Virus record (IMG/VR): IMGVR_UViG_3300010396_000042
Coordinates: 1-64,000 of that record
Length of the DNA: 64,000 bases
Source: a virus
Reading direction: 5' to 3' (one strand)
Both the position numbers and the translations under genes were made by a program. Positions 5,316 through 10,306 of the stretch are shown here, in pieces; positions within the stretch are counted from its first letter, which is position 1, and the number at the start of each line of letters is the position of its first letter. Under the pieces are notes generated by a model, which was not told where the DNA came from, did no database searches, and saw nothing but the letters and a program-made list of their open reading frames with translations.

Positions 5316-6665
5316 ATGTCACGTGCCCTGATTGGCACTCTGCTGGAGCGCCGCGGCGAACTCGCCCTCGAGCTCGACAAGACGCTGCAGCCGGCCAACA
5401 CCGAGAAGCGGAACCTCACTGAGGACGAAGCCGCGAAGTTCGACGCGATCAAGGCCGACATCATCGCGACCGACGAGCGGATCGCAGAGCTCGCCGAGAT
5501 CGACAAGGCCGACGAGGCCGCCGAGGAGCTGCAGAAGCGCTACTCCGGCCCCTCGGTCCAGGTGACCTCCGAGCCGCAGGTCTACCAGCGCGGCAACAAC
5601 GAGACGCAGTTCTTCCGGGACCTGTGGCTCGCCAACCACCGGCGCGACCAGGACGCCCTCGACCGGCTGCGCCGCAACAACGCCATGGTCGCCGACGCGA
5701 AGAAGCAGCGCGCGATCTCCACCGGCACTGGTGCAGGCGGCGAGTTCGTGCCGCCGTTGTGGCTGGAAGAGGACTACATCAAGTTCGCCCGCGCAGGCCG
5801 GGTGACCGCGAACCTGTGCCGCCGCGGCGTCGTGCCGCCCGGCACGAACTCGATCAACATCCCGAAGATCAACACCGGTACCGCCACAGCGCCGGTGTCC
5901 TCGCAGAACAGCAACATCCAGAACACCGACCTGACCACCACGTCGGTCTCCAGCCCGGTCATCACGGTGGCCGGCGGCCAGACCGTCTCGCTGCAGCTGA
6001 TCGAGCAGTCCCCCCTGAACATCGACGAAATCGTGCTGCAGGACCTCGCGGCCGACTACGCCGTGAAGCTCAACGTCCAGGTCCTCTCCGGCACGGGCTC
6101 CTCCGGCCAGGCCACCGGCCTGCTCACCCTGTCGGGTACCAACTCGATCGCCTGGACCCAGGCCACCCCGGCCCTCGGCGGCCCGGGCGGCATGTACCCG
6201 AAGGTCGCCAACGGCATCCAGCAGATCCACACGAAGCGATTCCTCCCGCCGAACGCGATCATCATGCACCCGGTGCGGTGGGCCTGGGCCGAGTCCCAGG
6301 TCGACAACAACGGCCGCCCGCTCGTCGTTCCGGCGTCCGGCGGCGCGTTCCAGATGCTCGCCAACCTCGACGAGCAGGTCTCCGAGGGCCTGGTGGGCTC
6401 TATGCTCGGGCTCCCGTGCTACGTGGATGCGTTGGTCCCGGTGACCGGGGGCGCAGGTTCAAACCAGGACTCGATCATCGTCACCAAGGCCGATGACCTG
6501 TGGCTTTGGGAGGGCGAGATCCGGGCGGAGGCGTTCGCTCAGACCTACGCGAATCAGATGTCTGTGTTCGTGCGCCTATACAATTACGTGAGCTTCCAGC
6601 CCGGTCGTTACGCCCCGTCGACGAGCGTGATCACCGGGACCGGGGCCGTCAGCCCGGCCTTCTAG
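5316..6665 (+). CDS. Major capsid protein, HK97 fold
   Basis: A 449-residue capsid subunit. The first 100 residues are a charged coiled-coil (delta domain, LLERRGELALELDKTLQ and following) normally removed by the prohead protease. From ISTGTGAGGEFVPPLW onward the sequence follows the HK97 shell fold. An AAAGGGG ribosome-binding site precedes ATG 5316. A 172-base non-coding gap separates it from the protease and could hold a strong late promoter, though I see no convincing -10/-35 pair. An intact homing-type gene follows directly. Confidence 0.92.
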   Translation: MSRALIGTLLERRGELALELDKTLQPANTEKRNLTEDEAAKFDAIKADIIATDERIAELAEIDKADEAAEELQKRYSGPSVQVTSEPQVYQRGNNETQFFRDLWLANHRRDQDALDRLRRNNAMVADAKKQRAISTGTGAGGEFVPPLWLEEDYIKFARAGRVTANLCRRGVVPPGTNSINIPKINTGTATAPVSSQNSNIQNTDLTTTSVSSPVITVAGGQTVSLQLIEQSPLNIDEIVLQDLAADYAVKLNVQVLSGTGSSGQATGLLTLSGTNSIAWTQATPALGGPGGMYPKVANGIQQIHTKRFLPPNAIIMHPVRWAWAESQVDNNGRPLVVPASGGAFQMLANLDEQVSEGLVGSMLGLPCYVDALVPVTGGAGSNQDSIIVTKADDLWLWEGEIRAEAFAQTYANQMSVFVRLYNYVSFQPGRYAPSTSVITGTGAVSPAF

Positions 6666-6779
6666 GTCTGACCCTCCGCTGGCTGTCGGTACCACTCTGT
6701 AGTTTCGGATCCGACAAGTGACCCCCCGACGCGAGCACGCCGAGGGGCCTTGCCGGACACCGATAGGGACGGTTCCGAC

Positions 6780-7409
6780 ATGCCAGATCGTACGTGCCAA
6801 CGCTGTAGTTCGTCGTTCGAGGTGGACAAGTTCAGCTGCGCGAAGTGGTGCGACGCGTGCAAACCGATCGTGCGACGCGAGCAGTTCGCGAAGCACGACA
6901 AGAAGCGGCGCCCGACTCCGGTCCTCCACATCGATTGCGCGGCCTGCGGAACGCCATTCGAGCACAGCCGACCAGGACAGCGTCCGCAGTATTGCCCGGA
7001 CTGCCGCGTAAAGCGGAGCTATCGCGAGCGACCTGGGCGCGTGCAAGGCAAGGCCCGTGGTTATCACCTCAAGAGCAAATACGGGCTATCAGAGGCGGAT
7101 TGGGACGATCTGTTTGCCCGGCAGGGAAAACGGTGCGCGGTCTGCGGAACAGCTGACAGCGAAGCTCAATGGCGCACCGACCATGACCACGTATCGGGAC
7201 GAGTCCGAGGCATCCTCTGCCATCACTGCAACGTCGCGCTCGGACACTTCCGGGACATCCCAGCGCGGCTGCGCGCCGCAGCGCTTTATCTCGAAGGCGC
7301 GCAGGCCGAGTTGTGTCCGGGGGCCGCCATGCCAGCCCCCGTGCAGAAAACCGCAACACCCGATCGCTCAGCTCAGCCGGAAAACAACCAGGCCTCAACA
7401 CTCTTCTGA
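6780..7409 (+). CDS. Endonuclease VII-like HNH (homing) endonuclease
   Basis: About 209 residues. Two zinc-ribbon-like Cys pairs (CQRC...CDAC and CAAC...CPDC) precede the endonuclease VII core: CAVC, then DHDHVSGRVRGILCHHCN. This core binds zinc and cuts DNA. ATG 6780 with an upstream AGGGA is chosen; a TTG 30 bases earlier is possible. Codon use is less GC-biased than in the flanking capsid and decoration genes, consistent with a recently arrived selfish gene. The capsid frame is complete, so this is a free-standing gene, not an intron-borne one. Confidence 0.87.
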   Translation: MPDRTCQRCSSSFEVDKFSCAKWCDACKPIVRREQFAKHDKKRRPTPVLHIDCAACGTPFEHSRPGQRPQYCPDCRVKRSYRERPGRVQGKARGYHLKSKYGLSEADWDDLFARQGKRCAVCGTADSEAQWRTDHDHVSGRVRGILCHHCNVALGHFRDIPARLRAAALYLEGAQAELCPGAAMPAPVQKTATPDRSAQPENNQASTLF

Positions 7410-7490: not shown

Positions 7491-7835
7491 ATGGCCGCGA
7501 ACACCTTGGTGGCTTCGGCCGCCCGCACTGCTACGGGCAACTCCGGCGCGATCGCCGTCGGCTCCGGTGCCGCGAACCTCGAGCTCGAGGTCGAGGTCAC
7601 CGCAGTATCGGGGACCTCGCCGACCCTGGCACTGACGATCCAGTGGTCGGACGACGGCACGAACTTCGGCAACAACGACGGTTCAACTGACTCGTTCGCG
7701 TCGATCACCGCGACCGGAAACGTCACGAAGTCCATCCCGGTGCGTGCACCGTACATGCAGTTCACCTGGACCGTCGGCGGCACCACGCCGTCGTTCACCT
7801 TCTCGGTGATCGACGTCGCCAGCAACGTCATCTGA
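7491..7835 (+). CDS. Putative head decoration-like protein 1
   Basis: A 114-residue beta-rich protein full of Thr, Ser and Val. It ends in GGTTPSFTFSVIDVASN. Its near-twin is encoded immediately downstream (GTTPSFTFSV shared, also WSDDGTNFG versus WSNDGTNFG). Position after the capsid and its composition suggest a capsid decoration or fibre-like subunit; that role is inferred from location. A GGAGGCGG ribosome-binding site precedes ATG 7491. Confidence 0.75.
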   Translation: MAANTLVASAARTATGNSGAIAVGSGAANLELEVEVTAVSGTSPTLALTIQWSDDGTNFGNNDGSTDSFASITATGNVTKSIPVRAPYMQFTWTVGGTTPSFTFSVIDVASNVI

Positions 7836-7899: not shown

Positions 7900-8232
7900 A
7901 TGGCCTCGGGTCCGTTCACCATCGTCAACTCCGCCGCGCGCACCAGCACCGGAAACAGCGGCGCGCTCGCGCTCGGCGACCAGTCGGTGCTCGACCTCGA
8001 AGTCAACGTGAGCGCTGCGTCCGGCACGACGCCATCGCTCACGCTGTCGGTGCTGTGGTCCAACGACGGGACGAACTTCGGGGCGCCGGACGGCGGCGGC
8101 GACAACTTCGCGGCGATCACTGCCACCGGCACGGTCGCCAAACAGCTGACCGTTAAGGGCCTGTACTGCCAGATCGTGTGGACGATCACTGGCACCACGC
8201 CGTCGTTCACGTTCAGCGTCATCGCTTCCTGA
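7900..8232 (+). CDS. Putative head decoration-like protein 2 (paralogue)
   Basis: A 110-residue paralogue of the preceding protein, sharing the AARTSTGNSGA opening, a WSNDGTNFG motif and the GTTPSFTFSV end. An AGGAGCC ribosome-binding site lies upstream of ATG 7900. The pair arose by tandem duplication and has since diverged. It is probably a second surface subunit with a related fold. Function is inferred from position next to the capsid gene. Confidence 0.75.
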   Translation: MASGPFTIVNSAARTSTGNSGALALGDQSVLDLEVNVSAASGTTPSLTLSVLWSNDGTNFGAPDGGGDNFAAITATGTVAKQLTVKGLYCQIVWTITGTTPSFTFSVIAS

Positions 8233-8245
8233 GAGGAACCGACCC

Positions 8246-8833
8246 ATGTCAAACCCCGCGAACCTCGTGGCCGGGCTACTCGACGAGCGCGAGTCCGCCG
8301 AACGCCGCGGCGACGAGGAACTGCTCAAGCAAGTCGACGAGCAGATCGACGCGCTGCGTGACGCCCTCGCCGAGTTCGATCCCGTCGGCGTCGACGAGGA
8401 GAACCAGCGCAAGTTCGTCGCCGGTGTGCGCCGACGCCTGGAGGCCTCCGACCGCGGCGAGCGCACCGCTCCGGCCGCGCCCGGCGAGCCCACGTTCCAC
8501 AACCCGGCGAACTACCTGACCGGGCTGCTCGACGAGCGCGACGGCGCCGTGCGCGCCGGACGACCGACCGATGACATCGATGCGGAGATCGAGAAGGTGC
8601 GTCCCCACTTCGACAGCTTCCAGCCGGAGGAGGACGAGGCCGGCGACGCCCGCGCCCACTATGCCGCCGCCAAGCGGCGACTGGCCGACCTCGGCCGCCG
8701 CTCGCGCACGCCCAAGGCCGAGCAGGTCGAGGATCAGGGCGACGGCGGCAACGAGACGGAGTCGAAGGACGCGAAGAAGACCGGCGCCCGCACCACGAAG
8801 GCCGCAGCGCCCCCGCGCACCACAGCCCCGTAA
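8246..8833 (+). CDS. Charged two-repeat protein of the head region
   Basis: A 195-residue, strongly charged, mostly helical protein made of two copies of a roughly 65-residue unit. Residues 3-70 begin NPANLVAGLLDERE and residues 86-150 begin NPANYLTGLLDERD. Each unit continues into a FDP/FDS segment and a basic helix. A low-complexity Lys/Thr/Ala tail follows. ATG 8246 has a GAGAGGAAC upstream. No known domain is recognised. An internal head or scaffold role is only a positional guess. Confidence 0.65.
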   Translation: MSNPANLVAGLLDERESAERRGDEELLKQVDEQIDALRDALAEFDPVGVDEENQRKFVAGVRRRLEASDRGERTAPAAPGEPTFHNPANYLTGLLDERDGAVRAGRPTDDIDAEIEKVRPHFDSFQPEEDEAGDARAHYAAAKRRLADLGRRSRTPKAEQVEDQGDGGNETESKDAKKTGARTTKAAAPPRTTAP

Positions 8834-8842
8834 GGCCGTGCC

Positions 8843-9400
8843 ATGGCGGACTACGGGCAGAGCGCGCTCTCCAAGCACCTGCGCAAGGTCCGCCACCAGC
8901 ACCGCGTCCTGCACGCGCATCGGCGCGGGCCGCACCACGCGCACACCGAGCGGCGCCGCCGGCTGCACTCGCACCACCACGCCAAAGGCCAGCGCCACCA
9001 TCCGAAGCACCCGCACGGACCGCGGCTGCACAAGGCCAAGCGCCTGCAGAAGGGCCACAAGGCACACCGGCTGCACAAGGCCCGCCGCATCCAGCGGCTG
9101 AAAACCGCGCAGCACCAGCGGCGCAAGCACGTCGCACACCGTACCCACGTCGCGCACCGGCGGGCCGTGCGCCGGCACCTGCAGCACGCCCGGCGCTCCT
9201 CACACCGCAAACGGCGCGCAGCGCACCACAAGCACGTGCTGCACCACCGCAAGCACCACATCGCAGGGCACCGGCACATCGCGCACCGCAAGCACGTCAA
9301 ACACCGCCGCGCCGCCGGCCACCACCGCAAGGCCTCGCACCACCGCAAGCACAAGTACGCGCACAAGGCCCACCACACCCACCGGCGCAGGCACCGCTGA
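8843..9400 (+). CDS. Extremely His/Arg/Lys-rich protein
   Basis: 185 residues, of which by my count 50 are His, 39 Arg and 20 Lys, with only two acidic residues. Short HHRKH/AHRKH-type words recur throughout, without a fixed period. The frame follows the previous gene by 9 bases and the connector gene by 24, in the same direction, which supports it being expressed. A nucleic-acid-condensing or metal-binding internal head protein is possible, but nothing in the sequence proves function. The opposite-strand Cys/Arg-rich frame is its mirror image. Confidence 0.62.
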   Translation: MADYGQSALSKHLRKVRHQHRVLHAHRRGPHHAHTERRRRLHSHHHAKGQRHHPKHPHGPRLHKAKRLQKGHKAHRLHKARRIQRLKTAQHQRRKHVAHRTHVAHRRAVRRHLQHARRSSHRKRRAAHHKHVLHHRKHHIAGHRHIAHRKHVKHRRAAGHHRKASHHRKHKYAHKAHHTHRRRHR

Positions 9401-9424: not shown

Positions 9425-10306
9425 GTGACGTACGTGTACAGCAACGGACAGGACGTCGCGCTCAACGTCACCGTCCTGAACGACGCGCAGCTGCCGGCCA
9501 ACGCCGCCAGCGTCACCGTCACCGTCACCCAGCCCGACGGCAGCACCCTGACCCCCACCCCGATCAACGCCGGCCCGGGCGTCTATCAGGCGGTCGTCGC
9601 CGCGCCGACGCAGACCGGCACCTACCTGGTGCACTGGTCAGCGTCAGGGTCCGGATTCAGCTTCAGCTACGACGATCAGTTCCAGGTACGCCCCACCGGT
9701 GTCGAGCAGATCGTGGACCTGGCCTCGACCAAGGCGCACCTGAACATGCGCGCCGACGACACGTCGCAGGACGCTGAGCTGATGGGGTTCATCCTCGCGG
9801 CCACCCCGGTGATCCGCGACATGATCGGGCCGATCGTCCCCGAGCAGCACGTCGAGTTCTTCGACGGCGGCGTGATGACGATCTCGGTGGCGTGGCAGCC
9901 GCTGATCTCGATCCAGTCGATCTACGAGTACTACGGCCTGAGCAAATTCCTGCTCACCGAGCAGCCGCTCGGCACCCAGATGAACGCCTTCGGGTTCACC
10001 GTCGACTACATCACCGGTCAGGTCACCCGCCGCACGTTCGGCGGCGAAGCGGCCCTCTTCGCTGACGGCGACAAAAACGTCGAAGTGCACTACACCGCCG
10101 GACGCGGCGACATCCCCTACAACGTGCGCCTCGGCGCGCTGGAGTTCATCCGGCACAACTGGTCGATGACCCAGCAGGCCGGCCGCCCCCGCGTGCGCCC
10201 TGGCATGGACGGCGGCGGCGAGATGGCCGTACCGATCGGCTTCGCCGTCCCAGACAGGGTCGTCGAATTACTCAGCCCGCACCGACGGCCGCCCGGGATC
10301 GCCTGA
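9425..10306 (+). CDS. Head-tail connector (gp6-like) with N-terminal beta-sandwich domain
   Basis: 293 residues. The first ~88 residues (VALNVTVLNDAQLP...TGTYLVHWSASG) look like an Ig-like or invasin-like beta-sandwich. From VDLASTKAHLNM the sequence matches gp6-like adaptor proteins: LAATPVIRDMIGP, then a beta region, then LEFIRHNW. The adaptor ring sits under the portal. Start GTG 9425 follows a GGAAGGCGG-type site. Overlap with the next gene is one base (TGATG). The N-terminal fusion is unusual for this family and might be surface exposed. Confidence 0.78.
   Translation: MTYVYSNGQDVALNVTVLNDAQLPANAASVTVTVTQPDGSTLTPTPINAGPGVYQAVVAAPTQTGTYLVHWSASGSGFSFSYDDQFQVRPTGVEQIVDLASTKAHLNMRADDTSQDAELMGFILAATPVIRDMIGPIVPEQHVEFFDGGVMTISVAWQPLISIQSIYEYYGLSKFLLTEQPLGTQMNAFGFTVDYITGQVTRRTFGGEAALFADGDKNVEVHYTAGRGDIPYNVRLGALEFIRHNWSMTQQAGRPRVRPGMDGGGEMAVPIGFAVPDRVVELLSPHRRPPGIA

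Follow-up and report, generated by a model that had tools for sequence, protein, structure and literature searches.

The DNA that tailed phages package is usually regarded as essentially naked and neutralised by small cations. In phage T4, the internal proteins IPI, IPII and IPIII are small head proteins, each of them dispensable, poorly conserved and in some cases basic, and about 360 copies of each are present (PMC9026906). In adenovirus, the core proteins VII, V and mu are polycations on the virion DNA, and V is thought to link the shell and the genome (PMC10081844). The ascovirus P64 is a very basic virion protein that condenses the genome (PMC6163548). A recent structure of a tailed archaeal virus left it open whether its inner DNA layers are ordered by histone-like proteins (PMC12494034).

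Judging from sequence, a soil actinomycete phage encodes, between its capsid and head-tail connector genes, a strongly basic protein, here called B, which probably contacts the packaged DNA in the head. The stretch of DNA analysed, called the window, comprises 64,000 nucleotides of the 97,298-bp IMG/VR virus record IMGVR_UViG_3300010396_000042. The B gene (8843–9400, + strand) runs unbroken from ATG to TGA, as the original prediction had stated, and encodes a His/Arg/Lys-rich polycation of 185 aa. The predicted composition, 59 percent His, Arg and Lys with only two acidic residues, was reproduced exactly (50 His, 39 Arg, 20 Lys, 22 Ala, one Asp, one Glu, no Cys, no Trp) and corresponds to a net charge of +57 at neutral pH (Arg/Lys minus Asp/Glu). 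Of the 630 six-frame ORFs in the whole record that reach 60 aa, B ranks first both in His+Arg+Lys fraction (0.59; the runner-up, an ORF of 61 aa, has 0.48; mean 0.20, sd 0.08) and in His fraction (0.27, followed by 0.12).

The two sequence checks proposed with the prediction both favour a genuine gene. GC at codon positions 1, 2 and 3 is 0.80, 0.45 and 0.925, the pattern of the flanking head genes. Comparison with the copy at locus L005 (85% identity) gave 13, 18 and 40 differences at the three codon positions and a dN/dS of 0.30. The frame, whose loss in relatives had been named beforehand as grounds for rejection, is kept in all 26 aligned copies. The odd composition, the absence of B from database families and the weak ribosome-binding site of the window copy might suggest a spurious, untranslated low-complexity GC-rich ORF, but this is hardly credible with coding-like codon-position statistics, an excess of differences at the third position, a low dN/dS, conserved terminal motifs, and a frame kept in copies that are only 24–85% identical to the window copy. 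The neighbour-like codon-position GC, and the frame kept with a dN/dS of 0.30, indicate that B is a real gene.

The location in the head gene block was confirmed as well. The large terminase, portal, protease and HK97-type major capsid protein (MCP; PF05065, HK97 fold; 5316–6665, + strand) genes lie upstream, and the head-tail adaptor gene (phrog_442, 1.6e-18; 9425–10306, + strand) begins 24 bp past the B stop codon and is followed by the tail genes. Between MCP and B, the order is an endonuclease VII-like ORF, two D proteins of 110–114 aa and the acidic protein A. The endonuclease VII-like ORF (6750–7409), between the MCP and cement-like genes, has a lower GC3 of 0.70 and is perhaps a homing-type insertion; loci L006 and L007 have an additional ORF at this place. 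The adaptor carries an N-terminal Ig/MG2-like domain before the adaptor part (PF09134 and PF01835, both under the curated cut-off). An Rfam scan of the 5–12 kb region of the window gave no match. Farther along the record and beyond the window, two neighbouring tRNA-Glu genes (CTC, TTC) are located at 83056–83204 (L138, 56–204).

The D genes form a tandem of beta-sandwich paralogues behind the capsid gene, D1 (7491–7835, + strand) being 59% identical to D2 (7900–8232, + strand). The model of the D protein is good (pLDDT 88.6), and its fold resembles 3j4u_H, the jellyroll cement of phage BPP-1, at rank 3 (E 2.3e-3, 23% identity); stronger matches lie with uncharacterised phage proteins, and no PDB match fell under E 0.001. 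D proteins are thus possibly capsid cement, and this modelled resemblance supports a capsid-accessory slot between MCP and adaptor. Protein A (8246–8833, + strand; 195 aa), which often but not always accompanies B, contains two NPANLVAGLLDER-like units (NPANLVAGLLDERESAERRGDEEL and NPANYLTGLLDERDGAVRAG), and relatives have in the same slot one MNPINYARGLL unit of about 80 aa and a short basic tail. In one capsid subclade (L056, L059, L063, L064 and L087), a 107-aa protein (MPPAKPAVRSDIAVEVDGVLDENG...) replaces A or B in the slot after MCP.

A search for relatives through MCP gave about 200 loci, many of them overlapping, among which the family profile recognised 32 distinct B genes. The copies come from soil viral contigs and from prophages of Streptomyces, Kitasatospora and Kutzneria; Kitasatospora sp. 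GP82 and Kutzneria buriramensis DSM 45791 are examples of hosts with a B-bearing prophage. The 26 aligned copies are 75–202 aa long, with His+Arg+Lys of 43–71% and up to 81 His in 202 residues (L022). Recurring segments in the alignment are the N-terminal LxRHLRRVRSQH, the middle HRHTLRAHRKHR and the C-terminal HRRYR; R182 is the sole invariant column, and the common N-terminal motif is missing in L008, L023, L036 and L060. A more divergent member was spotted by composition in Catenulispora (L095), and the family profile did not recover B from that genome at E 0.001.

The B gene lies downstream of MCP, on the same strand and within the late head gene block. It is directly 5' of the adaptor gene in 30 of the 32 distinct genes (gap 5–43 bp, median 11), that is, in every complete case, the other two being cut by contig ends. 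The same position emerged from searches that were not seeded on MCP. In 396 genomes of the family of Kitasatospora and Streptomyces, the profile gave seven matches in six genomes, all between MCP and adaptor, and in a wider class sample of 395 genomes its one match was the Kutzneria copy already known. When 2.9 million viral contigs were searched with a DNA pattern of the N-terminal motif, six matched, all of them true members with B just upstream of the adaptor; a second, looser pattern returned true members and four chance matches in unrelated frames. B had no match in Pfam, PHROGs, NCBIfam, PADLOC or PDB sequences. The direct search for related loci with the B protein gave nothing, nor did tblastn against phages and plasmids, which carries little weight with the BLAST low-complexity filter on; such searches reveal little because the filtering removes a query of this kind.

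For B, dN/dS is 0.12–0.46 in 13 of the 15 pairs with a value and 0.69 and 0.83 in the remaining two, which are more distant. These values, mostly higher than those of the flanking MCP and adaptor (the MCP values of L051 pairs, which look like alignment or frame artefacts, being excluded), indicate purifying selection on B. One pair of loci stands apart: between L049 (3640–4017) and L052 (6354–6734), B is 77% identical, whereas MCP and adaptor are 98–99% identical. Because dS is 0.61 in B and only 0.11 and 0.13 in the flanking MCP and adaptor, a roughly five-fold difference, it suggests that B alleles have been exchanged by recombination.

The structure of B was predicted with AlphaFold2 from 22 homologues, and at a pLDDT of 74 and a pTM of 0.36 no global fold is claimed. 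A predicted N-terminal helix (residues 8–25; 8864–8917, + strand) resembles the family motif, reaches a pLDDT of about 90 over residues 11–20 and has a hydrophobic moment of 0.38–0.42, against about 0.2 in shuffled sequences. A long basic helix is predicted for residues 64–158 (9032–9316, + strand) with a pLDDT of 89–98 over residues 71–140, although prediction tends to exaggerate lone long helices in sequences of this type. The basic C-terminal end (9380–9397, + strand) is the aligned counterpart of HRRYR. Periodicity peaks near 3.2 residues, with z-scores inflated by homology, and the only tandem DNA repeat is one weak array of 1.9 copies of 27 bp. A hexad repeat, [RK]H[VLIA]xH[RKH], was rejected as a family feature, since it is enriched only in the window copy, L011 and L044.

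The MCP-adaptor slot holds varying combinations of D, A, E and B, in which B is last every time. Protein A was ruled out as an obligate partner of B, being absent from about half of the B-bearing loci. B-bearing loci occur on each of the two deep branches of the MCP tree, and at least six changes are needed on this quick tree; B is, by its distribution, an accessory gene. Relatives without B have capsids 51–59% identical and contigs of 39.6–43.4 kb, and B-bearing contigs of about full length are 40.4–41.3 kb (sizes as assembled). Because relatives of about 40 kb match in genome size with and without the gene, B appears not to be required to pack a genome near 40 kb. Electrostatic recruitment of B by an acidic MCP delta domain found no support, the charge of this domain being -2.3 in B-bearing phages and -3.0 in those without B.

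What is conserved in B is its charge. Over 24 members, which are related, so that the spread is descriptive, net charge per residue averages 0.30 (CV 0.15), the Arg+Lys fraction 0.31 (CV 0.16) and Asp+Glu 0.01, whereas the His fraction averages 0.26 with a CV of 0.31 and a range of 0.09–0.40. As GC rises, the Lys/(Lys+Arg) ratio falls (rho -0.68) but net charge does not change, the pattern expected under selection for charge. We take these figures to mean that selection acts on charge and that His is a varying component or a modulator. The original prediction had also offered metal (Ni, Zn, Cu) binding and a His-driven pH switch. A His polymer of either kind would draw on the high His content (up to 40%, as in L022), the recurrence of His at spacings 3 and 6, and the pH response of nucleic acid carriers with His (PMC7465012). 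As the main function of B, however, both proposals lose ground to the polycation because His varies and because low-His forms (9% in L008 and L009; 13% in L049, L052 and L097) lie in separate subclades of the MCP tree, still under purifying selection. The conserved His content or clusters of a metal-binding His-rich protein are not seen, and Cys is absent from every member, so that a His polymer seems very improbable.

The fixed slot before the adaptor, together with the charge, leads us to lean, though only slightly, towards B as an accessory (non-essential) polycation inside the head, where it would bind packaged DNA or link it to the shell. In favour of such a protein are the net charge of +0.30 per residue with Asp+Glu averaging 1%, the place before the adaptor recovered also without the capsid gene as seed, the beta-sandwich proteins resembling solved phage capsid cement encoded in the same slot, purifying selection, and the precedent of T4 IPI–III. 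Against it stand the phages with related capsids and like genome size that lack B, and the four members without the N-terminal helix region (L008, L023, L036 and L060). The shared slot is also what an outer capsid or assembly factor would predict, one that acts via acidic surfaces and needs no contact with packaged DNA: the possible cement proteins D lie there too, as do E and A, and the order D-A-B after the capsid gene is nearly fixed. We consider this unlikely, as a polycation exposed on the particle should adhere to the nucleic acid and debris released by lysis, the MCP delta-domain charge shows no difference with or without B, and A is not obligate. Less probable again is an internal protein injected to act in the new host, for example by shielding DNA from nucleases or restriction like T4 IPI. 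The accessory presence with its six or more changes on the capsid tree, the divergence of B faster than its flanking genes, and the allele exchange to which the L049/L052 pair points would agree with such a role, and the T4 internal proteins are poorly conserved too (PMC9026906); PADLOC, however, gave no defence homology, and the composition of B suggests non-specific binding.

For the internal polycation, we infer presence in the virion, a location inside, contact with DNA and an effect on stability or ejection. B would be made late together with the capsid proteins and, as a mostly extended or helical polycation, would enter the prohead, where charge would hold it against the packaged DNA. 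It would probably bridge DNA to the inner shell or the neck region, may offset part of the charge of the packed genome and stabilise it, and could exit with the genome at infection. By arithmetic, the 97.3-kb genome has about 194,600 phosphates, so that at +57 per B about 3,400 copies would be needed for full neutralisation. Because a few hundred copies, the number that T4 has of each internal protein, would offset only some 10% of the phosphate charge, tuning or anchoring of DNA fits better than wholesale condensation. The predicted DNA-condensing internal head protein, which is compatible with all the evidence, therefore survives as the leading mechanism in a weakened form, and the part that falls is the need for B in condensation, given the same-size relatives with related capsids that lack it. 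A bolder version, in which B is protamine-like on motor-packaged DNA, anchors the genome to the shell or neck and has a charge tunable by His protonation, is possible but doubtful; if true, tailed bacteriophages would have a layer akin to chromatin.

In the papers searched, no phage protein of this kind was described. The B family appears new as a family and in its setting, while cationic virion proteins as a kind have precedents. As a defined family encoded beside the capsid gene, B conserves charge density, and natural B-plus and B-minus relatives of equal genome size make its role testable in prophages of Streptomyces, Kitasatospora and Kutzneria. Standard pipelines probably miss this family because low-complexity filters mask it.

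Among isolated phages, the closest by MCP (42–44% identity) are the cluster J mycobacteriophages (Omegavirus: Porcelain, Baka), in which no B gene was seen after the capsid gene. Porcelain gp22, encoded just before the adaptor, is small with a basic tail, KRRRGRPPK (an AT-hook-like end), and by eye it looks like the acidic A proteins and not like B. Hpn-type His-rich metal proteins have their high His in common with B, but in B the His content is not conserved. These metal proteins are not known to be dominated by Arg and Lys. The T4 internal proteins carry a cleaved capsid-targeting sequence, whereas none was identified in B. The gene of B adjoins that of the capsid, its product is extremely basic, and no sequence relation to the T4 proteins emerged, B having no match in PHROGs or Pfam. 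Adenovirus is a eukaryotic virus, while tailed phages pump DNA by a motor into a preformed head, and ascovirus P64 is a 64-kDa protein of distinct architecture, whereas B is 75–202 aa long and His-rich; no match to the core proteins of either virus was found in Pfam, NCBIfam or PDB sequences. With viral protamines and core proteins, B shares a strong net positive charge and very few acidic residues, and with phage structural modules a fixed place on the same strand in the late head gene block. By this comparison, the T4 internal proteins, adenovirus core protein V and ascovirus P64 are best taken as working analogies of B and not as its relatives.
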